Assembly: GCF_005406125.1 (NCBI RefSeq)
Contig: NZ_BIXZ01000005.1
Location: forward strand, 62,001-126,000
From: Haloarcula mannanilytica
Lineage (GTDB): Archaea > Halobacteriota > Halobacteria > Halobacteriales > Haloarculaceae
Direction: 5' to 3'
Length of the DNA stretch: 64,000 bases
Shown: piece by piece, positions 7,107 through 42,846 of the stretch
How positions within the stretch are numbered: position 1 is the first letter of the stretch
Layout: the number at the start of each line of letters is the position of its first letter
Program-made: the position numbers and the translations under genes
The notes under the pieces: generated by a model
The model's database searches: none
What the model saw: the letters and a program-made list of their open reading frames with translations, nothing else
Told to the model about the DNA's origin: nothing

Positions 7107-7751
7107 ATGGCAGCCTTCGACCGGCTCCGCAGTCGCCTCCAGCGGGCCGCGCCGGCGACGAGCGGGCGGCTCACTGCCGCGGAGTTCCTGCTTTCGGGTG
7201 CGGCGGCCGGCCTGGTCGGCTGGGTCGGCACGCAGATAATCGCGTGGTCCAACCACACCAGCGGCGCGTTGCTCGCCACGGCGCTGTGGGTCGTCCTGGT
7301 CGGCGGGTTCGTCGGCCTGACGGTCTTTCACGCCCCCGAGTCCGTCCGCTTTTCCGACGCAATGCTCGCCTGGGGAACGATCAACACCGCCGCGATGGTG
7401 CTGACGGTCGGCGGCCTCCTCGGTGTCGTTCCCGAGTCGCTGGCTTACTGGCACGCCTGGGTCGCCGCGTTAGCCGTCGGCTACTGCTGGACCGGCGGCG
7501 TCCTCGAAGGAGCCGGTCAGCCCGCACGCGGACGGGGCTATCTGGGTGCTGGCGTCCTCGGCCTCTGTCTGCTGGCTGTCGGGGCTGTGTCGTTCTCGCT
7601 GGTCGCCCCGACGGGCTATCTGGCGCTCGCCGCGCTCCACGCGGGCCCCATGCTCCTCGACGTACGAACAGGCTTGCCGGCGGTTTACCGGACTGCTGTC
7701 GTCGGAATAGCTGTCGCTTTCGTTCTCGTTATCGGCGTCATCGTGGCCTGA
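7107..7751 (+). CDS. Seven-helix-like integral membrane protein, unknown
   Basis: A 214-residue membrane protein with about six or seven hydrophobic segments and short loops. It has a basic amphipathic N-terminus (MAAFDRLRSRLQRAAP) and no catalytic motif that I can recognise. The ATG at 7107 was chosen; the frame extends leftward over the preceding gene but is arginine-rich there. It is on the same strand as the small membrane protein before it and converges on the DUF2103 gene, with 17 bases between the two stops. Confidence 0.7.
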   Translation: MAAFDRLRSRLQRAAPATSGRLTAAEFLLSGAAAGLVGWVGTQIIAWSNHTSGALLATALWVVLVGGFVGLTVFHAPESVRFSDAMLAWGTINTAAMVLTVGGLLGVVPESLAYWHAWVAALAVGYCWTGGVLEGAGQPARGRGYLGAGVLGLCLLAVGAVSFSLVAPTGYLALAALHAGPMLLDVRTGLPAVYRTAVVGIAVAFVLVIGVIVA

Positions 7752-7768
7752 ATGGTGTGACGCGGGCG

Positions 7769-8497
7769 CTACTCCTGCAGATCAGCCTCTTGGAGCGCCT
7801 CGTTCAGGTCGGCCCGGACGTGTTCGCCGAGTTCGCGGTCGCCGGCCGTCGTGACGACGCGGTTCTCCTGCACGCTGGAGCCGTCGCGGATGAGCACCCG
7901 GACGTTGCCGTTGGCGTCGGCGCGGGTCGCCTTCGCCCGGACGCCCGTCGGCGAACTCGCGCCGCCGGCGTCGATGGGGCCGGGGATGACCTTCTTGACG
8001 TGGGGGTGCCCGGCGACAGTCTGGATGACCCGCTGGCCCGACCGGCCGCCGATGAGCGTCGAGTGGCTCCCGCCGAGTTTCTCCGCGGGCGCGGCGTCGA
8101 CCACTTCGAGGGCGGGTTCGCCCTGTCGGTCGATGACCCGCTGGACCGGGTCGTCGCTCTCGACGCGGAAGAACTCGTAGTGTAGTTGCGGGCGGACGGC
8201 GGCGATAACGTCGCGGTCGCCCGTGACGTACACCTCCTCGGGTCGTTTGCGCCGTACCTCGTCGGCGACGAGACCGGCGAAGTTCCGGAGTTCGACGACG
8301 ACGGTTTCGTCGCTCCCCTCGCCCTCCGGCGTCGTCGTCACCGTGCGCTGGCCCACGACCGACCCCTCAAGCAGCGAGGTTACCGTCGCCCGCTCGCGGT
8401 CAAGTTCGAGGACGACGGCGTCCGTGTTGGCAGTGTGACAGACCAGACAGTAGTCGCCCGGTCGGTCAAGCGGCGTGGCACACTGCCGACAGTCCAT
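7769..8497 (-). CDS. DUF2103-type metal-binding protein
   Basis: A 242-residue protein beginning with a four-cysteine zinc knuckle, CRQCATPL and YCLVCHTAN, followed by a mixed alpha/beta body (GQRTVTTTPEGEG, LVADEVRRKRPEEVYVTGD) and a C-terminal domain with KKVIPGPIDAGG and GNVRVLIRDGSSVQENRVVT. This matches the DUF2103 predicted metal-binding proteins of archaea, whose function is unknown. The start is the ATG at 8497, right before the first cysteine pair. It lies 61 bases downstream of pantoate kinase on the same strand, so co-transcription is likely. Confidence 0.75.
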   Translation of the reverse strand: MDCRQCATPLDRPGDYCLVCHTANTDAVVLELDRERATVTSLLEGSVVGQRTVTTTPEGEGSDETVVVELRNFAGLVADEVRRKRPEEVYVTGDRDVIAAVRPQLHYEFFRVESDDPVQRVIDRQGEPALEVVDAAPAEKLGGSHSTLIGGRSGQRVIQTVAGHPHVKKVIPGPIDAGGASSPTGVRAKATRADANGNVRVLIRDGSSVQENRVVTTAGDRELGEHVRADLNEALQEADLQE

Positions 8498-8558: not shown

Positions 8559-9395
8559 TCAGCCCTCGTCCTCGATGGTCGCGCCGGGTGGGTAGATGGC
8601 ACACACGTTGGCATCGTAGCCAGCGTCTGAGAGGCCGGTCCCGAGCGCGAACACCGTCTCGCCGAGCATCGCCATCGCCGCGTCCCCACCGGCTTCGGCC
8701 ACGTCGTCGATGACAGCTTTCACGTCCGGCGTCAGTAGCTCCGCCTCACGGGAGAACTGCCGCGAGGCCTGTACGAACGTCGATAGTGTTGGCTCTTTCA
8801 CGACAGTCGAGAGCGCGCGCTCGCCAGCGGTCGTCAACGTCTCGGTGTCGCCGCCGACCACGTCCGCCGTCGACAGTTCGCCGAGCGTGACGTACTCGAT
8901 GCGGCTGCGGGCCGGGATGGCGTCGATATAGTTGAACTGCGGCCCGCCGGGTTCGAGTCGGAGCGGAACGCCGCCGCGGGCCTGCGCGACAACATCGCCG
9001 AGGCCCGAGCCGGCCTGAACCTCCGCGCCGTGGGCGATGGTCACCAGTTCGTTGTACGAGAGCCCGTGGCCGAAGACGGCGTTTGCCGCCAGCGCAGTGC
9101 CAAGCGCCAGCCCGCCGGAGACGCCAAAGCCGGACCCGAGCGGGAGCGGCGTCTCGGCGGTGACGGTCGCCGTCGTCCGCAGCGCGTCCAGCACTCGCTT
9201 GACGGCTTCAACCTCTATTTCCTCGTCGTTCAGCGTTATCTCGGTCTCCGGCCCGCGGCTGACAGTGACGGCAACGCCATCAGACAAGGCCAGCCCGCCG
9301 CCGCGGGAGCCGGTCTCGATGGGGTCATCGCCCCGGTCGACCGTGAAAAAGCCCGTGATGTGGCCGGGCACGAACGCGTGTGCTTCGTCGCTCAT
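8559..9395 (-). CDS. Pantoate kinase (GHMP family)
   Basis: A 278-residue GHMP-fold kinase matching archaeal pantoate kinase, which phosphorylates pantoate to 4-phosphopantoate in archaeal coenzyme A synthesis, where the bacterial order of steps is reversed. It opens with AFVPGHITGFFTV, has the GHMP ATP-binding loop PLGSGFGVSGGLALGTALA, and then GAEVQAGSGLGDVVAQARGG. The C-terminal part carries MLGETVFALGTGL. The start ATG 9395 fits the family; a further ATG at 9428 is less likely. The usual partner, phosphopantothenate synthetase, is not in this window. Confidence 0.88.
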   Translation of the reverse strand: MSDEAHAFVPGHITGFFTVDRGDDPIETGSRGGGLALSDGVAVTVSRGPETEITLNDEEIEVEAVKRVLDALRTTATVTAETPLPLGSGFGVSGGLALGTALAANAVFGHGLSYNELVTIAHGAEVQAGSGLGDVVAQARGGVPLRLEPGGPQFNYIDAIPARSRIEYVTLGELSTADVVGGDTETLTTAGERALSTVVKEPTLSTFVQASRQFSREAELLTPDVKAVIDDVAEAGGDAAMAMLGETVFALGTGLSDAGYDANVCAIYPPGATIEDEG

Positions 9396-9566
9396 TGCCT
9401 CCCCGTGGGACTCAGCAGCGTTAAGCATTGGTGGTCGACCGCTCCCGCATCGCCCACAGCGGCTATCGCTGCCGGAAATAGCAGTTATAATGAGATTCGC
9501 GATATCTGACAGGCGGTTCTCCGACCCGTAGTTTGATGTGCGTTTACGGCGGATGACTGTGCAAAC

Positions 9567-9869
9567 ATGCCGACAATCAGCGCGCGGCTCCCGAGCGAAG
9601 AGAAAGACGAACTGGACGACGTGGCCGAACTGCTCTCCGAGGACCGGTCGACCACGATTCGGAAGGCGCTCCGGGAGGGACTGGAGACGCTCCGGCTCCG
9701 CGTCGCCGTCGAGCAGTACCAGTCCGGCGACGTGTCGGCGGCCGAAGCCGCACAGCTTGCTGATCTCTCTATCGCGGAGTGGCTCGACGTGGCCCGCGAA
9801 CGCAATCTGACGACGCAGCTCGAACTGTCCGACCTGGAGCTCGACGCCGACACGGCCGCGGAGCTATGA
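9567..9869 (+). CDS. UPF0175-family antitoxin-like protein
   Basis: A 100-residue protein of the UPF0175 family, predicted antitoxin-like DNA-binding proteins usually paired with a PIN-domain partner. It begins PTISARLPSEEKDELDDVAE, a ribbon-helix-helix-like segment, then RSTTIRKALREGLETLRLR, and ends with the family's VSAAEAAQLADLSIAEWLDV helix-turn-helix-like part. Its stop overlaps the start of the PIN-like gene by four bases (ATGA), giving the classic antitoxin-first coupled pair. Confidence 0.82.
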   Translation: MPTISARLPSEEKDELDDVAELLSEDRSTTIRKALREGLETLRLRVAVEQYQSGDVSAAEAAQLADLSIAEWLDVARERNLTTQLELSDLELDADTAAEL

Positions 9870-13704: not shown

Positions 13705-13812
13705 GCCACCGGGACTGACTGGGCCGTATCCATACCCAACGGACACGTAGTCATGGCGTTGTGGTACGTATACTGAAAGCAACCTTTCCCATGGCAAGTG
13801 CCGTGAAACGGT

Positions 13813-16266
13813 ATGGAGAAGCCGGTCGGTGAAACGGACGAGAACGAACAAGCGGCACGTGACACACCGGCACAGCAGTCCCCGCCTGTGTTGTTGGAGA
13901 CACTCGCCGCGCGAATGCCAGAGCCAGTGGTCGTCACCGCCGCCGACGGGGAAATACGGACCGGGAACGACCACCTCAGCGACCTCCTCGGTTCGGAGCC
14001 ATCGGACGTGTTTGGGCGTCAAATCGGCGATTTTTTCCCGGATTTGAGCGATGTCAACCTCGGAGCCCACTGCAGTCAGTCGCCGGGAACACCGCTGACA
14101 TCGTCGTGTTCCGTCGGCGGTACGGAGCGGTGGGTCGAAATCGCCTTCGAACCCCAGCAGTGGGACGGCGAGGAGTTGTACCTCGGTATCGTCCACGACA
14201 TTACCGAGCGCCACGAGCGGACGGAGATGCTCGAACAGTACGAACGTATCGTCGAAACCATTGAGGACGGCATCTACACGCTCGATGAGTCGTTCACGAT
14301 GCAGACGGTCAACAGCGCTGTCGAGTCGATGACCGGCTACGACAAGGACACGCTGGTCGGGTCGAACGCAACGTTGCTGGCGGACGAATCCGTCATCGAG
14401 GAGGCCGCCGAGATGTCGCGGCAGTTCATCGAAGGCGAGCGCGACGTAGGAACGCTGACGACGGATCTCAGAACCGCCGACGGGGACACGCTCCCGATAG
14501 AGACAAAATTCACGACCTATGACCGCAAGGACGGGAGCTACCGGCAGGTCGGCGTCGTCCGGGACATTTCGGACCGGAAGCGGTTCGAGGAGACGCTCGC
14601 GGCGCTACACGAGTCGACCAGAAAGCTGCTGCACACGGAAACCAAGCCGGCCGTGGCCGAGCAGATACTCGACACGGCCGTCGACGTGCTGGAACTGCCC
14701 GATGTGGAGATCTATCTGTTCGACCGCAGCGACAACACCCTCCACAGCGTCGGCGACGCCGAATCGGACCGGAACGCGTCGATCGGACCGGGCGAAAGCA
14801 CAGTCTGGGACGTGTTCGTGCGGGACAGCGCCGTCGAAGTCGGCCCCGGCGAGAGCATCGACCTCGGTGCGGGACCGGTGACGACGGACGCAACGCGGCT
14901 CTGTCTGCCGCTCGAAGACCACGGCGTGTTCTACATCGAACTGGGCGAGCGACACACCGATGCCCGGACCCGCGAGATGGTGGACCTCCTCGCCGCTAGC
15001 GCGGAAGCCGCGCTTGCGCGCGTCGACCGCGAGACGACCCTCCGCGAGCGCGAGGCCGAACGCCGCGAGCAGAACCGCGAACTCCGACGGCTCAAGCAGG
15101 TCAACGCGATTATCCGGCGGATCGACCAGGTGCTCGTGGAAGCGGAGACCACAGAGGAGATCGAGCAGGCAGTGTGTGACCAGTTGGCCAAGTCCCAGTG
15201 GTTCTCTTTCGCCTGGATCGGCCGACAGGACACGACGGAACTCGTCCCCAGGGCGTGGGCGGGTGACACCGCCAGCTATCTGGACGCCGTCTCGCTGTCG
15301 CTGGAGCGCGAGGGCGGACCACCGGCGGTCCAGACGGCACAGTCCGAAGCGATGACTGTCGTTCCGTCGGTGGCCGACAACCTCCGGGGCGACCACTGGC
15401 GGACGGAGGCGCTCTCCCGCGAATTCCAGTCGGCGCTCAGCATCCCGCTCGAATACGACGATTTCGTCTACGGCGTCCTGACGGTGTACGCCGCACAGGA
15501 GGACGGGTTCGACGAGATGCTTCAGGAGGTGTTCGCCGAACTGGGCGAGACTATCGCAAACGCGATACGGGAAGTCGAGTCCCGACAGCGACGGGCCGGC
15601 GACGGCACCGTCGAACTCGAACTGTCGCTGTCGGCCCCCCAGTCGTTCCTGACACAGCTTGCCGACCGCATCGGCGTGCAGGTCGTCTGTGAGGGAGCCG
15701 TACAGCGCAGCGATGGGGCGATTCGTCTCTTCCTTGCAATCTCGGACTGCGACCCGGCAGTTGTCGAGGAGCAGGTAGCGTCGATGGCCCGGGTCGATAC
15801 AATGCGAGCGATTTCGACCGATCAACTGGACGGACTCTACGAGGTCGTCGTGACCGGCCAGACCGTCGCGGAGACGCTCCTTGAGCAGGGCGGGCGGTTG
15901 AAATCGCTGCGAACCTCGACGGACGGACTCACGGTGACAGTCGTCGTCTCTGGCGAAACCGATGTCCGGCAGTTCGTCGAACAGCTCGGCGAGCGGTACG
16001 CGGGCGTCACGCTGATCGCACGCCGTGACGGCGCACAGTCCGACGGCCAGCGCGACGGGACGGTTCGGTCGGCGCTCGAAGAGCAACTCACCGACAGGCA
16101 ACTCGAAGTGCTGCAAACGGCGTATCTGAGCGGCTTTTTCGACTGGCCCCGGGAGACGACCGGCCAGGAGATCGCGTCCAGTCTGGACGTGTCACAGCCG
16201 ACGGTCAACCGGCATCTCCGCGTCAGCGAGCGGAAACTGCTCGAACTCGTCTTCGGCGATAGCTGA
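13813..16266 (+). CDS. Bat-type PAS/GAF sensor with HTH_10 domain
   Basis: An 817-residue sensor and transcription regulator related to the Bat-type protein at the left of this window but without a receiver. In order: PAS at about 30-140, PAS at about 145-260 (IVETIEDGIYTLDESFT, GYDKDTLVGSNATLL), GAF at about 270-400, a helical linker rich in Arg/Glu, a second GAF at about 430-590, the Bat-associated domain at about 605-750, and HTH_10 with LTDRQLEVLQTAYLSGFF and QPTVNRHLRVSERKL. It starts with ATG 13813. Ligand and target genes are unknown; the HalOD1 gene follows 180 bases later. Confidence 0.87.
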   Translation: MEKPVGETDENEQAARDTPAQQSPPVLLETLAARMPEPVVVTAADGEIRTGNDHLSDLLGSEPSDVFGRQIGDFFPDLSDVNLGAHCSQSPGTPLTSSCSVGGTERWVEIAFEPQQWDGEELYLGIVHDITERHERTEMLEQYERIVETIEDGIYTLDESFTMQTVNSAVESMTGYDKDTLVGSNATLLADESVIEEAAEMSRQFIEGERDVGTLTTDLRTADGDTLPIETKFTTYDRKDGSYRQVGVVRDISDRKRFEETLAALHESTRKLLHTETKPAVAEQILDTAVDVLELPDVEIYLFDRSDNTLHSVGDAESDRNASIGPGESTVWDVFVRDSAVEVGPGESIDLGAGPVTTDATRLCLPLEDHGVFYIELGERHTDARTREMVDLLAASAEAALARVDRETTLREREAERREQNRELRRLKQVNAIIRRIDQVLVEAETTEEIEQAVCDQLAKSQWFSFAWIGRQDTTELVPRAWAGDTASYLDAVSLSLEREGGPPAVQTAQSEAMTVVPSVADNLRGDHWRTEALSREFQSALSIPLEYDDFVYGVLTVYAAQEDGFDEMLQEVFAELGETIANAIREVESRQRRAGDGTVELELSLSAPQSFLTQLADRIGVQVVCEGAVQRSDGAIRLFLAISDCDPAVVEEQVASMARVDTMRAISTDQLDGLYEVVVTGQTVAETLLEQGGRLKSLRTSTDGLTVTVVVSGETDVRQFVEQLGERYAGVTLIARRDGAQSDGQRDGTVRSALEEQLTDRQLEVLQTAYLSGFFDWPRETTGQEIASSLDVSQPTVNRHLRVSERKLLELVFGDS

Positions 16267-16362: not shown

Positions 16363-16445
16363 TAGTGGCCCACCCAGGCCGGTCGTATCTGTATAGCCAC
16401 AATCACCTTTCGAATCACGGGATAAGGGAGAAACAGCGACGAAGC

Positions 16446-16745
16446 ATGTCCCAGGCAAAACTGGTCTACAGACCGTCACCCAACGAACCGCTGAGCGACA
16501 CGATTGTCCACGCGGTGGCCGACACGCTGGGTGTCGACCCCGTCGACCTCGACGACCGAATCAGTGACTGCATCGACCCCGACGCGCTGGACCGACTGTT
16601 CCATCCCGACAGGGACGGGACACCGAGTCCCGACGGGCTAGTCGTGTTTAGCATGGCCGGCTGTCGCATCGAAGTCGAAGGGAACCGGTCAGTGCTGGTG
16701 ACACCGTCCCGCGACATCTCGACGGCTGCTGGACTGCAAGCGTAA
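16446..16745 (+). CDS. HalOD1 output domain protein
   Basis: A 99-residue protein consisting of one haloarchaeal output domain 1 (HalOD1), a small domain found alone or at the end of haloarchaeal signalling proteins. The pattern is SDTIVHAVADTLGVDPVDL, then IDPDALDRLF and a final VVFSMAGCRIEVEGNRSVLV. I chose ATG 16446, since the upstream in-frame extension is not domain-like. Its position behind a Bat-type regulator suggests a signalling role, but this is inference. Confidence 0.85.
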   Translation: MSQAKLVYRPSPNEPLSDTIVHAVADTLGVDPVDLDDRISDCIDPDALDRLFHPDRDGTPSPDGLVVFSMAGCRIEVEGNRSVLVTPSRDISTAAGLQA

Positions 16746-17019
16746 CGCGGCTCCGTCTCTTCTGGCGCTGGTGTCGTCTTCCATCAAGCATTATTTAGCA
16801 AGCTACTGGCTAGTAACAGCTGTATTATTCGAACCTTATTTTCTTTTCTCGGATAGTAGGACCCCTTTGCTTTCAGTAGGACAATATTTCTTATTTGGTA
16901 GCAGATTAAAAACTGGTACGTATCTTGGAGTAAAACTGGCTAAAGCATGTTGTTAATAGTATCTTACTAGCAGCCTACGCGTCAGTACCACTATAAGCGC
17001 AACTTCACCTCTCGATTGT
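16746..17019. other. AT-rich gene-free stretch before the terpene-synthase-like gene
   Basis: From about 16785 to 17000 the sequence is conspicuously rich in A and T compared with its surroundings, with runs such as tattattcg and ttattttctttt. A short frame (16771-16956) exists but has few acidic residues and is hydrophobic without a pattern, so I do not call it. The stretch ends in a good TATA box. It may be a large regulatory region or sequence of foreign origin. Confidence 0.6.
16991..16998 (+). promoter_or_regulatory. TATA box for the small ORF/terpene-synthase-like operon
   Basis: The sequence ctataagc is centred about 26 bases before the ATG at 17020, the spacing expected for a leaderless archaeal transcript. 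This supports ATG 17020 as the first start codon of the transcript and argues against reading the terpene-synthase-like frame from an upstream TTG at 17016. Confidence 0.65.
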
Positions 17020-17169
17020 ATGGACCGCGGAAACCAATCGACCGAACCCGACGTGACATCCGAGAGGCTCACCGACCGAATAGAAACAGTCAAAGTTCAG
17101 TTAATGGGACATTATTCCACCGGCTGTACCGGGATCCAGGGCGCAAGCTTCGGAGGCCCGTCACAATGA
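17020..17169 (+). CDS. 49-residue small protein coupled to terpene-synthase-like gene
   Basis: A short frame from ATG 17020 to TGA 17169 encodes 49 residues (starting MDRGNQSTEPDVTSERLTDR, ending in a Gly/Ser-rich tail, with HYSTGCTG in between). The stop overlaps the ATG of the next gene as ATGA, and a TATA box lies 26 bases before its start, so it appears to be the leaderless first cistron. It resembles nothing I know. It may be a real small partner protein or only a device for translational coupling. Confidence 0.5.
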   Translation: MDRGNQSTEPDVTSERLTDRIETVKVQLMGHYSTGCTGIQGASFGGPSQ

Positions 17170-18131
17170 GCGTCGAGTCCTCCCCCGAAGCACAGGACCT
17201 TCTCGAAGAGGTTCGAACGACTGACCTCCCGGACCGCGTCGAGGAACTTGCAGACGAGTACGAACGCGTCTGTGGCGAACGTGACCGGTTCCTCTGGCAG
17301 TGGATCTACTCGCTGTTCCCCGAGTTCACGCTCTCGTCGGTCGACACGGACCACGCCGACCACGTCCGGACACAGAAGACGATTCTCACGATGTACGTCA
17401 CGATCTTGGACGACATCGTCGAGAACGACGGGGACCGTGATACCTTCGCAGAGGCCCGACGGCTCGTCCAGAACCCGTCAGCTGTGGACCCGAGCTGTGC
17501 GGCGGTAAGTGAGGAATACTTCTCCTTCATCCAGCGTGTCTGGCGGGAGTTCGAGAGCGGCCTGACTGACGCACCGCGTGTCGACGAGTTCTACGACGTG
17601 TTCACCTACGATATGCGACAGACGCTGAACGCGATGGACTACAGCGCGGTCGTCAACGAGAACCCACGGATCGCCAACCTCAGCGGGGCCGAAAGCTACG
17701 GGGCACACAATATGGTAATGTTCCCCTACGCCGCGGTAGACCTGATGTACTCGCAGGAATTCGACCTCGCTGACTACGGGACGGTCCGGGACCTCATCTG
17801 GGACCTTCAGGAGATGGCCCGCATCGGGAACTGGCTCACGACCTGGGAGCGGGAAGTCAAAGAGGGGGACTACACCGCGGGCATCGTCGTGCTGGCGCTC
17901 CAGGAAGGGTTTGTCACGCCCGAGGAACTGGAAAACCCCGACGGGAAGGACGAACTCATCGACAAGATCAAAGCCGAACGGTTCGAAGCGAAGTTCCGCG
18001 ACCGGTGGGCCGAAATCTACCAGTCCGTGCGCGACCGTGAGTTCGACACAGAGAGTGTCGATCTCGACGCGCTGGTGCAGGGAATGGAGACGGTGTTCCA
18101 GTACCACGAAGCCAGTCGCGGCCACAAGTAA
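17166..18131 (+). CDS. Class I terpene synthase-like protein
   Basis: A 321-residue, mostly helical, soluble protein with both metal-binding motifs of class I terpene synthases. The aspartate-rich motif is TILDDIVENDGD (Asp82, Asp83, Glu86) and the NSE triad is GNWLTTWEREVKEGD, with Asn222, Thr226 and Glu230 in exact N-xxx-S/T-xxx-E spacing. The length and the roughly 140-residue distance between motifs fit bacterial terpene cyclases. Substrate, product and activity are not deducible; a trans-prenyltransferase is unlikely because only one Asp-rich motif is present. It starts at ATG 17166, coupled to the small upstream frame, after an AT-rich leader region. Such enzymes are rarely described in archaea. 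Confidence 0.65.
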   Translation: MSVESSPEAQDLLEEVRTTDLPDRVEELADEYERVCGERDRFLWQWIYSLFPEFTLSSVDTDHADHVRTQKTILTMYVTILDDIVENDGDRDTFAEARRLVQNPSAVDPSCAAVSEEYFSFIQRVWREFESGLTDAPRVDEFYDVFTYDMRQTLNAMDYSAVVNENPRIANLSGAESYGAHNMVMFPYAAVDLMYSQEFDLADYGTVRDLIWDLQEMARIGNWLTTWEREVKEGDYTAGIVVLALQEGFVTPEELENPDGKDELIDKIKAERFEAKFRDRWAEIYQSVRDREFDTESVDLDALVQGMETVFQYHEASRGHK

Positions 18132-39769: not shown

Positions 39770-39860
39770 ACTATGCGCATATATTTCGGCAGATTAGGAG
39801 GGAAATAACTGTAAGCGGCTCCTTCCACAAAGCCCTTATTGAGTGGTTGAAATGTATTCA

Positions 39861-40778
39861 ATGATGCTATCGAGGGGGAAGCGATTGGGCTATGCGGCCT
39901 ACGAGCGATTGCTTCAGTGGGAACTGTCAGGAACACCGGACCACGTCGCCGTCATTCAGGATGGGAACCGGCGCTATGCACGGAAACAGGGGGCCGAAAC
40001 CCACGAGGGTCACAGAGAGGGGGCCGAAACGACGGAGGCGCTGCTGAACTGGTGTGACGAACTCGACATCCGCGAAGTGACGCTGTATGCGTTCTCGACG
40101 GAGAACTTCGACCGCGACCCCGAGGAGCGAGAGCACATCTTCGACCTCGTCGAACAGAAGCTCCGGACGTTTGCTGACGCCGACCGGGTCCACGACGCTG
40201 GCGTCTGTATCCGCGCCATCGGCGAAACCGAGATGCTGCCCGAGCGAGTCCAGGACGCCATCGACTACGCCGAGGAGCGAACGGCCCAGTACGACCAGCT
40301 CAACCTCAACGTCGCACTGGCCTACGGCGGCCGGGCCGAACTGCTCGGCGCGGCGCGCGATGTCGCCAGTAGCGTCGAGGAGGGCGACCTCGACCCGACG
40401 GACGTTTCTGCGGAGACCATCGAGGAGCGACTGTACGAGGGGCCGACCCGCGATGTCGATCTCATCGTCCGGACCGGCGGCGACGAACGCACCTCGAATT
40501 TCCTGCCGTGGCACGCCAACGGCAACGAGGCCGCCACGTTCTTCTGTACCCCCTACTGGCCGGAGTTCCGGAAAGTCGACTTTATGCGGGCGATTCGTAC
40601 GTACCAGAACCGCGAGCAGTCCTGGCGGACGACCCGCGCTCGCCGCTCGCTGGCGCTGGTCCACGCCATCGAGCAGTCGGAACTGCCGACGGCCAAACGG
40701 ATGCTTGGGCGATTCCGGGACGCGCTTCCGAGTGCCGAGCGCGAGCAACTCGACGAGGAATACGAAATCGCGGACTGA
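39861..40778 (+). CDS. uppS: cis-Prenyltransferase, catalytic-type subunit
   Basis: A 305-residue Z-type prenyl diphosphate synthase that would extend a polyprenyl chain for glycan carrier lipids. The pyrophosphate-binding motif with catalytic Asp is VAVIQDGNRRYARKQG, then REVTLYAFSTENFDR and IVRTGGDERTSNFLPW. After that the usual WQxAYxELYF stretch is replaced by WHANGNEAATFFCTPYWPEF, and no C-terminal RxG motif is seen. Starts at 39843, 39852 and 39861 are all in frame; ATG 39861 gives the closest fit to the family. Its stop abuts that of a second, convergent homologue, with which it may form one enzyme. Confidence 0.9.
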   Translation: MMLSRGKRLGYAAYERLLQWELSGTPDHVAVIQDGNRRYARKQGAETHEGHREGAETTEALLNWCDELDIREVTLYAFSTENFDRDPEEREHIFDLVEQKLRTFADADRVHDAGVCIRAIGETEMLPERVQDAIDYAEERTAQYDQLNLNVALAYGGRAELLGAARDVASSVEEGDLDPTDVSAETIEERLYEGPTRDVDLIVRTGGDERTSNFLPWHANGNEAATFFCTPYWPEFRKVDFMRAIRTYQNREQSWRTTRARRSLALVHAIEQSELPTAKRMLGRFRDALPSAEREQLDEEYEIAD

Positions 40779-41387
40779 TCACCGGCCAAACCGGCGCTGG
40801 CGTTCCTGATAATCCCGCAACGCCCGCAAGTAATCCCGCAGCCGAAAGTTCTGCCAGTTCACGTCAGTAAAGTACAGCTCCGAATACACGGATTGCCAGA
40901 TCATGAAATCAGAGAGTCGCTCGGCTCCGGTTTTTATCACGAGGTCCGGGTCGGTCGGAAAGACGAGATGTTCCTCGACTGCGGCCTCGTCGATGTCGTC
41001 CGGGTCGAGAGAGCCCTTCTCGACGCTTTCGGCGAGCTTCTGGACCGCCGTCGCGAACTCCGATTGCCCGCCCAGGCCGATAGAGATCTGAATCGGGGCG
41101 TCGGCTGTCGTCTCATCGTCGGGTACTCTGACCGCTATCTCTCTGGGCGCGGTAACGTTTTCGAGTTCCCGCTGGAGCGTCGGAATCGCCTCCTCGTCGA
41201 GGACACTCACGTAGACGACGACGGTTTCGGTGCCGTACTGGACAGTCCAGTCGAAGAAGCGTTCGAGCGTGGTGTAGGCACCGTCGCCGAGCAGGTCCCG
41301 CTCCGTGATGACCAGCGCGACCGTCTCGGGCAGGTCGGCGTCGCTCATCCGCACGCGTGTGGCGAGATATCGGTCGTATAGTCCCAC
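40779..41387 (-). CDS. cis-Prenyltransferase-like subunit without catalytic motif
   Basis: A 202-residue homologue of cis-prenyltransferases in which the N-terminal DGNGRWA motif is missing (ETVALVITERDLLGDGAYTT stands there). The C-terminal part is well kept: VIKTGAERLSDFMIWQ, SVYSELYFTDVNWQNF, and an ending RRFGR that contains an RxG motif. This is the pattern of the non-catalytic subunit in eukaryotic enzymes (NgBR, Nus1). The start is GTG 41387. It lies end to end with the catalytic-type homologue on the other strand. Confidence 0.8.
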   Translation of the reverse strand: MGLYDRYLATRVRMSDADLPETVALVITERDLLGDGAYTTLERFFDWTVQYGTETVVVYVSVLDEEAIPTLQRELENVTAPREIAVRVPDDETTADAPIQISIGLGGQSEFATAVQKLAESVEKGSLDPDDIDEAAVEEHLVFPTDPDLVIKTGAERLSDFMIWQSVYSELYFTDVNWQNFRLRDYLRALRDYQERQRRFGR

Positions 41388-41487
41388 GCCCGCCGGTATG
41401 CTGACAGCCCCAGTAAATCCCACGGTACCGTCCCCTCGCCCCAGCAGTTCGGAAAGGGTAAGTGCCTCTCGGGGATACCGGTGGCAC

Positions 41488-42846
41488 GTGACTGGCACAG
41501 TCCGACGTGCAGGTGGGTTCGCCGCCGTGGGGACCCTCGCGGTCGTCGTCCCGGCCGCGACGGGCTTTCGCTCGCTCGAACTCGCGACTGTCGCCGCCAT
41601 CGCACCCTTCGTCCTCGTCGCTGCGCTCGGCGTAACGGTCATCGGGCAGGACTCGCGGCTGTTCGACCTGTTCGCGCGTCCCGGCGACTACGAGGACGGG
41701 AAACTGTACGGGCTGGCGGCTTTCTCGCTTGCGGCCGCCGGACTCGCGCTGCTTGCCGTCCGATTCAGCTTACCGGTGCCGGTGTTCGTCGGCGTCGTCG
41801 TCATCGTCGCCTACGGGAACCTCGGGCAGCGGCTCGCCTACACGGTCCGTTCCGACGAGGTGGTCGCGACCGCGGGCTTCGTCCTCGTCGGCTTTGTCGC
41901 CGGCGTCGCGGGACAGGTGCTCGGGACACAGATTCAGGCCGCCGTCGGCGAAGGGGCTGCCGCCGTCGACCTCCCGTTAGTGCTGTTTCTCGCCGCTAGC
42001 GGTGCGTTCGTCGCCGCGCTGCTTCGCTCGGTGCTGTTCGAGCGGGACGACCCGCTGGTGATGCTCACCGTTGGACTGCTGCTGTGGCTGTTTTTCGAAC
42101 TCGACCCGTCGGTGACGACCCAGCGTGTCGTCATCGCGCTGGCCGTGACAGTACTGCTTGGCTATCTCTCCTACGCCCTCGACACCGCGTCGCTCCCGGG
42201 GATGCTCACCGGCGTTCTCCTCTCCTTTTTGACCATCGTGCTCGGCGGGTTCGGCTGGTTCGCCATGCTCATCACCTTTTTCGGACTCGGTGGCCTCTCG
42301 ACGAAGTACCGCTACGAGGAGAAACTGGAGCGGGGCATCGCCGAGGAAAACGAGGGCGCACGGGGGAGCGGGAACGTGCTCGCAAACTCCATCGTCGCGC
42401 TGTTTGCCGTCGTCGCCGCGGCGGCAAGCCCGAGCCACATCGCTGTGAACCCGCTACTCTTCTTCTATGCGTTTGCCGGGGCCGTCGCCGCCGCGATGAC
42501 CGACACGTTCTCTAGCGAGTTCGGCGGACTCTACGACAACCCGCGGCTCATTACGACCCTCAGACCCGTCGAGCCGGGCACTGACGGCGGCGTCACCTGG
42601 CAGGGGGTCGCCGCCGGGGCCGTCGGCGCAGGCATCATTGCCGGTATCGCCGCGCTCACGCAGGACATCGGCACGGTCGGCGGCAGCGTCATCCTCGTGT
42701 GTGGGCTGGTCGGCATGACCGTCGACAGCCTGCTGGGTGCGACCGTCGAGGGCTCTGTCGTCGGCAACCAGGGCGTCAACATGCTCGCGACGCTGGCGGC
42801 CGCGCTGACCGGGGCCGGCGTCGTGCTGGCAGTCGGCCTCCTATGA
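41488..42846 (+). CDS. DUF92 integral membrane protein
   Basis: A 452-residue membrane protein with about twelve hydrophobic segments. The C-terminal half is the DUF92 domain, with GFGWFAMLITFFGLGGLSTK, AAAMTDTFSSEFGGLYDNPR and VGMTVDSLLGATVEGSVVGN. The family includes the plant phytyl-phosphate kinase VTE6, so an isoprenyl phosphate kinase role is possible, particularly beside the prenyltransferase genes; this is inference. The start is GTG 41488. Its stop overlaps the start of the acetyltransferase gene as ATGA. Confidence 0.82.
   Translation: MTGTVRRAGGFAAVGTLAVVVPAATGFRSLELATVAAIAPFVLVAALGVTVIGQDSRLFDLFARPGDYEDGKLYGLAAFSLAAAGLALLAVRFSLPVPVFVGVVVIVAYGNLGQRLAYTVRSDEVVATAGFVLVGFVAGVAGQVLGTQIQAAVGEGAAAVDLPLVLFLAASGAFVAALLRSVLFERDDPLVMLTVGLLLWLFFELDPSVTTQRVVIALAVTVLLGYLSYALDTASLPGMLTGVLLSFLTIVLGGFGWFAMLITFFGLGGLSTKYRYEEKLERGIAEENEGARGSGNVLANSIVALFAVVAAAASPSHIAVNPLLFFYAFAGAVAAAMTDTFSSEFGGLYDNPRLITTLRPVEPGTDGGVTWQGVAAGAVGAGIIAGIAALTQDIGTVGGSVILVCGLVGMTVDSLLGATVEGSVVGNQGVNMLATLAAALTGAGVVLAVGLL

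Follow-up and report, generated by a model that had tools for sequence, protein, structure and literature searches.

A gene of Haloarcula mannanilytica that probably encodes a class I terpene synthase lies beside its own BAT-type sensor-regulator, and relatives of the gene in other clades lie beside other regulators or kinases. This wiring is the new point of our analysis, and the neighbours of the gene suggest that terpene production is turned on and off by a sensor-regulator of the cell's own. On sequence and model evidence, we put the probability at roughly 0.7 that the protein is a class I terpene synthase that depends on Mg2+ and whose expression the adjacent BAT regulator probably controls via the element CTGGTACGTA. 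Positions refer to the window, the whole stretch of 64,000 nucleotides that was analysed. The terpene synthase homologue (TS) occupies 17166–18131 on the + strand and encodes 321 residues; the assignment draws on the PF19086 score, the AF2 fold, PDB matches and homologues found throughout Halobacteria.

The start of TS is the ATG at 17166, as in the Haloarcula sister genes; the longer frame that opens at a TTG (17016) extends the ORF mechanically and is not kept in those sisters. In the Pfam search, the protein scores 32.9 bits against PF19086 (Terpene_syn_C_2), above the curated gathering cut-off of 23.7 and well outside what chance would give, which answers the profile search proposed in the earlier note. 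TS is the one PF19086 gene in the source genome, and 38 of 59 TS homologues match the model at E 0.01 or better. NCBIfam holds no model for the protein, and PF00348 is absent among its Pfam matches up to E 10. PDB sequence searches with the single protein or with a profile gave nothing significant, the best profile match being to class I diterpene synthases of the Sat1646 type (E 0.14 and 0.3); thus, family membership rests on the Pfam score, the fold and the motifs together. An unrelated all-helical protein was rejected as an identity, with a GCR1_C match below its own cut-off and a phmmer match to PDB entry 3gnl at E 1.1. A viral origin was likewise set aside, with no relative on viral contigs and no PHROG match. 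A chain-elongating prenyl synthase (trans-isoprenyl diphosphate synthase) was rejected on the single Asp-rich motif and the unmatched PF00348, and the translation holds no second Asp-rich DDxxD motif, as the earlier note had said. The 321-residue frame also carries DDIVE and the Asn222/Thr226/Glu230 triad as described there, and the proposal that an archaeon here carries a candidate class I terpene synthase is borne out by fold, family profile, motif order and near-absolute conservation. To judge from sequence and model, the Haloarcula gene very probably codes for a terpene enzyme from a large archaeal family that is almost without annotation, and the enzyme would work by the mechanism of an ordinary class I terpene synthase.

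The AF2 model of TS has a pLDDT of 95.7 and a pTM of 0.93, and we assign the predicted structure to the alpha-domain class I isoprenoid synthase fold with very high confidence. Structure prediction had been suggested as a check, and it returned a class I terpene synthase fold rather than one foreign to the alpha-domain helical bundle. The best PDB matches of the model in Foldseek are class I terpene synthases, with E values down to 5e-5, and the 50 rows also include a few isoprenyl diphosphate synthase-type entries. After VIA realignment, terpene synthases fill all of the 50 best rows, at Z values of 19.9–22.4. The model aligns with taxadiene synthase at a Z value of 22.4 and an RMSD of 3.0 over 264 residues, and with selinadiene synthase at a Z value of 21.2 and an RMSD of 2.9 over 266 residues. 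A methanogen homologue, 17–24% identical to the rest of the family, models as the same fold (pLDDT 88.1), and its top match is Sat1646 at a Z value of 23.0, tied with others.

The Asp-rich metal-binding motif DDIVE (Asp82, Asp83 and Glu86; 17409–17423, +) lies in predicted helix 61–86, within the segment TILDDIVENDGD of residues 79–90. The NSE/NTE-type motif NWLTTWERE (17829–17855, +) lies in predicted helix 201–232; the segment GNWLTTWEREVKEGD carries its ligands Asn222, Thr226 and Glu230, and Asn222 is 140 residues C-terminal of Asp82. Both motifs are assigned as metal binding from their conservation. Asp83 and the Asn/Thr/Glu triad are kept in 59 of 59 aligned homologues, save one Ser at Thr226, and in a wider sampling of 100 rows the metal-binding residues are kept in essentially all. 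There, Asp83 is found in every family row that has a letter at that column, Asp82 in 97/99, Glu or Asp at position 86 in 99/99, Asn222 and Glu230 in 99/99 each, and Thr226 in 98/99 with one Ser. A wide alignment of 37 rows, which spans Halobacteria, methanogens and MAG contigs, has Arg39, Trp46, Asp83, Pro137, Asp192, Asn222, Thr226, Trp227, Glu230 and Asp235 as invariant positions. Two features count against the assignment: TS has Trp in place of Asp at the second position of the NSE-type motif, and it lacks the C-terminal Arg-Tyr pair of bacterial terpene synthases. All three metal ligands of the NSE-type motif are present, and the profile alignment pairs NWLTTWERE with NDLASYERD of Sat1646. 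TS thus resembles the bacterial and fungal type of class I terpene synthase described by PF19086 in its alpha-domain fold, Asp-rich motif, N-xxx-S/T-xxx-E motif, length and lack of a second DDxxD, but differs in having NW for ND, in lacking both the Arg-Tyr pair and a sensor Arg in helix G, in being archaeal and in its linkage to sensor-regulators.

Typical bacterial terpene synthases have the diphosphate-sensing Arg in helix G (PMC9814573). In TS this residue is absent: the column 46 residues before Asn222 is variable and holds Glu176 here. In the crystal structure of Sat1646, the sensor Arg220 is located in helix H, three residues before Asn223, and the linker Asn182 and the effector Tyr183 are located at the helix-G break (PMC9814573). 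The likely equivalent of Arg220 in TS is Arg219 (17820–17822, +; 99/99), three residues before Asn222, which makes it the likely helix-H diphosphate sensor. Asn182 and Met183 (17709–17714, +; 94/99 and 93/99, respectively) are the likely linker and effector at the predicted break between helices G1 and G2, and the AF2 model has a helix break between residues 181 and 185. The TS family therefore appears, from sequence and model, to share the sensor/linker/effector arrangement of Sat1646. The methanogen group (L205–L210) is without Arg219 and Asn182 and retains the metal ligands. Sat1646 and Stt4548 (7e4n, 7e4o, 7e4m) are actinomycete class I diterpene synthases of the pimarane type (PMC9814573); TS would resemble both in the helix-H sensor Arg, and Sat1646 also in the Asn linker at the helix-G break. 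Sat1646 has EDWQVD as its Asp motif where TS has DDIVE, and both actinomycete enzymes use copalyl diphosphate (CPP), whereas the Haloarcula genome is without a class II cyclase match. The family would supply naturally occurring cases of the rarer placement of the sensor in helix H, and of terpene synthases adapted to salt.

We infer the activity, substrate and product of TS as follows. DDIVE and NWLTTWERE would hold an acyclic prenyl diphosphate (FPP or GGPP), ionisation would be triggered by Arg219 as the helix-H sensor together with Asn182/Met183 as linker and effector, and a cyclic or linear terpene would be released. The source genome encodes two polyprenyl synthases and two enzymes of the squalene/phytoene synthase type, which indicate that linear prenyl diphosphates are made. 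CPP is unlikely as the substrate, since the genome contains no match to the class II cyclase families PF13249 or PF13243. Whether the released product is a cyclised terpene is the point at which the strongest alternative enters: a class I fold with a non-cyclising reaction, that of a linear terpene synthase, a diphosphate lyase or hydrolase, or a prenyltransferase. The fold and the metal motifs cannot separate these activities, and no characterised enzyme in the PDB is close to TS in sequence; however, the second DDxxD of the chain-elongating type is absent and the nearest folds are mostly cyclases, so we consider such a reaction possible but rather unlikely. Elsewhere in the window, two cis-prenyltransferase (PF01255) genes lie next to a gene for a DUF92 integral membrane protein (39843–40778, +; 40779–41642, −; 41305–42846, +), and in the Methanohalobium loci L123 and L198 the TS homologue likewise has a DUF92 gene beside it. 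On a plasmid of Halobellus limi, a prenyltransferase/squalene oxidase repeat protein (L153, 10135–11295) is encoded a few genes from TS and, in this lineage, might serve as a class II-like partner.

The BAT-type sensor-regulator linked to TS (13813–16266, +) has 817 residues and the Pfam architecture PAS-PAS-GAF-GAF-BAT-HTH_10. Between it and TS lies a gene for a HalOD1 output-domain protein (16365–16745, +; PF18545, 79.2 bits), which keeps the same place across Haloarcula and is found near TS in other genera. In the BAT tree, the proteins adjoining TS form one clade with 98/98 support, whose 25 rows comprise 24 TS-linked proteins and one paralogue from the source genome itself. The BAT–TS pair is seen in three arrangements, with the regulator gene in tandem upstream, divergent or downstream, which suggests that the pair has been kept together through rearrangement. 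Other multi-domain BAT-type regulators of the source genome are encoded at 1063–1239 (−) of the window and at G000:C6:37177; of these paralogues only the C6 regulator, whose gene adjoins one for HalOD1, falls inside the TS-linked clade.

The regulator and TS also share a sequence element. CTGGTACGTA lies upstream of TS at 16913–16922 (+) and is exact in 15 of 15 Haloarcula alignment rows and in a Halomicroarcula locus (L078), which has two copies, both before TS. A copy with one mismatch, GTGGTACGTA, lies at 13761–13770 (+), 52 bp upstream of the regulator start, and at this place L072–L076 have the exact CTGGTACGTA. In each of five Haloarcula loci of 17 kb the 10-mer occurs exactly twice, one copy immediately before the BAT gene and the other about 273 bp before TS, and 680,040 bp of control haloarchaeal DNA contain one exact match. 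CTGGTACGTA was chosen after the TS region had been seen, so the copy in the BAT promoter is the sole independent test, and the species compared are related. A genome-wide search for the promoter element gave three exact 11-mers, one of which is the TS site. An element in both promoters is most simply read as autoregulation by the BAT protein together with its control of TS. Expression of TS in Haloarcula would thus probably be controlled by the adjacent PAS/GAF/HTH_10 regulator via CTGGTACGTA. We infer direct binding of the BAT protein to DNA and a signal that it senses; by analogy with Bat, that signal may be oxygen, redox or light, and under the control proposed the terpene would be made in response to it and not constitutively.

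In the 15 Haloarcula loci, strongly conserved intergenic blocks (TTCAGTA..., AAAAACTGGTACGTA and GTCAGTACCACTATAAG) lie at 16870–16925 and 16985–17030 of the window; they are probably promoter and operator sequences. TS is directly preceded by a small leader ORF of 49 residues (17020–17169, +), whose TGA overlaps the TS ATG as ATGA. The leader is conserved in Haloarcula, with 47–56 residues and the same start in 15/15 loci and the ATGA overlap in most; it has no Pfam match, and no counterpart was seen in the other genera looked at. A link between a Bat-type regulator and isoprenoid enzymes has a precedent in Halobacterium, where Bat controls bop and, through Brz, its circuit extends to crtB1, the gene for phytoene synthase (PMC2253796). 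The bat–bop–crtB1 system of Halobacterium salinarum resembles the TS locus in having a Bat-type PAS/GAF/HTH regulator close to the gene controlled (a predicted target here), in a circuit that reaches an isoprenoid enzyme and in a conserved small ORF that precedes the target gene (PMC2253796). The TS locus differs in that the putative target is a terpene synthase, not an opsin or phytoene synthase, and its leader ORF, unlike the small ORF of Halobacterium, has no CPxCG zinc finger.

Outside the BAT clade, TS homologues adjoin other signalling genes. Another group has a FilR1-type winged-helix regulator and HalOD1 as neighbours. In the six methanogen loci L205–L210, a homologous PAS-HisKA_2 kinase gene always adjoins TS (two are Pfam-confirmed). 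PAS-kinases lie beside TS in L123 and L198, a gene for a 7TM-sensor histidine kinase lies directly downstream of TS in L145, L149 and L151, and FIST is beside TS in L142. Signal domains occur within 1.5 kb of TS at 50 of 87 non-redundant loci, compared with 12 of 120 control positions in the same kinds of genomes. After collapse at 60% identity the counts are 16/41 against 4/40 (p 0.004), and at 50% identity 9/30 against 4/40 (p 0.06); the collapsed counts make the linkage clear within clades and moderate between them. At 39 of 103 rows of the TS tree, the scan found no signal-domain neighbour, and Natrialbaceae and some other clades are without one. Among the identified recurrent neighbours there is no tailoring enzyme (several clusters in Natrialbaceae and Halobellus being left unannotated), which led us to reject a biosynthetic gene cluster around TS, and the clearest neighbours are regulators. 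Among the papers accessible to our literature search, none was found on linkage between terpene synthases and sensors.

The variety of sensor types beside TS in separate lineages (BAT, FilR1-type with HalOD1, PAS-HisKA_2, PAS-kinases, 7TM kinases and FIST) would also be expected if the terpene itself were the signal, with TS making an isoprenoid ligand or messenger that the adjacent BAT regulator, PAS kinase or 7TM kinase senses. The same pattern is expected, however, if the sensor merely controls TS transcription, and several clades are without linkage, so we hold this reading to be unlikely; if true, it would mean an archaeal terpene-based signalling system in a family that archaea share with some contigs binned as uncultured bacteria. 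A pseudo-enzyme with a regulatory role, sensing the isoprenoid pool by binding prenyl diphosphates, would fit both the linkage to regulators and the loss of Arg219 and Asn182 in the methanogen group; yet the residues that bind metal belong to the best-conserved positions in the family, as expected of catalysis, which makes this version very improbable. The preferred reading remains a catalytic terpene synthase whose gene is probably under the control of its neighbour.

The gene order BFN domain protein–HAD hydrolase–BAT regulator–HalOD1–TS–CimA/LeuA is kept in Haloarcula and largely in Halomicroarcula. The AT-rich stretch to which the earlier note had pointed before TS is real: the distal intergenic part has a GC content of 0.43, against 0.61 in the TS gene. 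The acquisition read from it did not hold up, as the AT-richness and the gene order are common to the Haloarcula species compared and 15 of the 16 sampled Haloarcula genomes carry TS. The region before TS is AT-rich in each of the 15 Haloarcula loci (GC 0.41–0.51) and contains strongly conserved blocks, as a long regulatory intergenic region would. A recent acquisition from bacteria, for which the AT-rich stretch would speak, is therefore rejected as extremely improbable, because this stretch is shared by all the sister species and the pattern is vertical with conserved synteny in Haloarcula and Halomicroarcula. Deeper transfers of TS between haloarchaeal genera are possible.

Archaeal isoprenoids are known mainly for membrane lipids and pigments. 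A preprint by Samusevich et al. (bioRxiv 10.1101/2024.01.29.577750), cited in PMC12797696, claims terpenoid biosynthesis in archaea, to judge by its title; because of this claim, archaeal terpene synthases as such are not new. The view that such enzymes are little described in archaea stands in part, set against this preprint and against the terpene clusters reported in haloarchaeal (Halomicroarcula) genomes (PMC8600319). Archaeal enzymes were expressed in PMC13235557. With a widespread family, mostly annotated as hypothetical proteins, that keeps its terpene synthase motifs intact and has a sensor-regulator of its own, specialised terpene metabolism in archaea, and perhaps signalling by volatiles, becomes directly testable in haloarchaea and Methanosarcina that are open to genetics.

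TS homologues were found in 87 of 292 sampled Halobacteria genomes, covering 35 of 77 genera, and in 39 of 393 genomes from other members of the phylum, including methanogens. Further homologues lie in one Methanohalobium MAG and on three contigs binned as bacteria. Most sister proteins in Haloarcula are 90–93% identical, and plasmid-borne homologues are annotated as hypothetical proteins. The methanogen group L205–L210, probably Methanosarcina, gives no Pfam terpene synthase match and carries VDDSCD/DDCCD and NxxxTWxRE/KE motifs. One haloarchaeal genome (L067) has two tandem TS homologues, at 7326–8390 and 8671–9711. The contigs binned as bacteria are L145, L149 and L151, one of them assigned to Lysobacteraceae with a GC content of 0.30 and probably misbinned; a polyprenyl synthase is encoded near TS in L149 and an HMG-CoA synthase near TS in L151.
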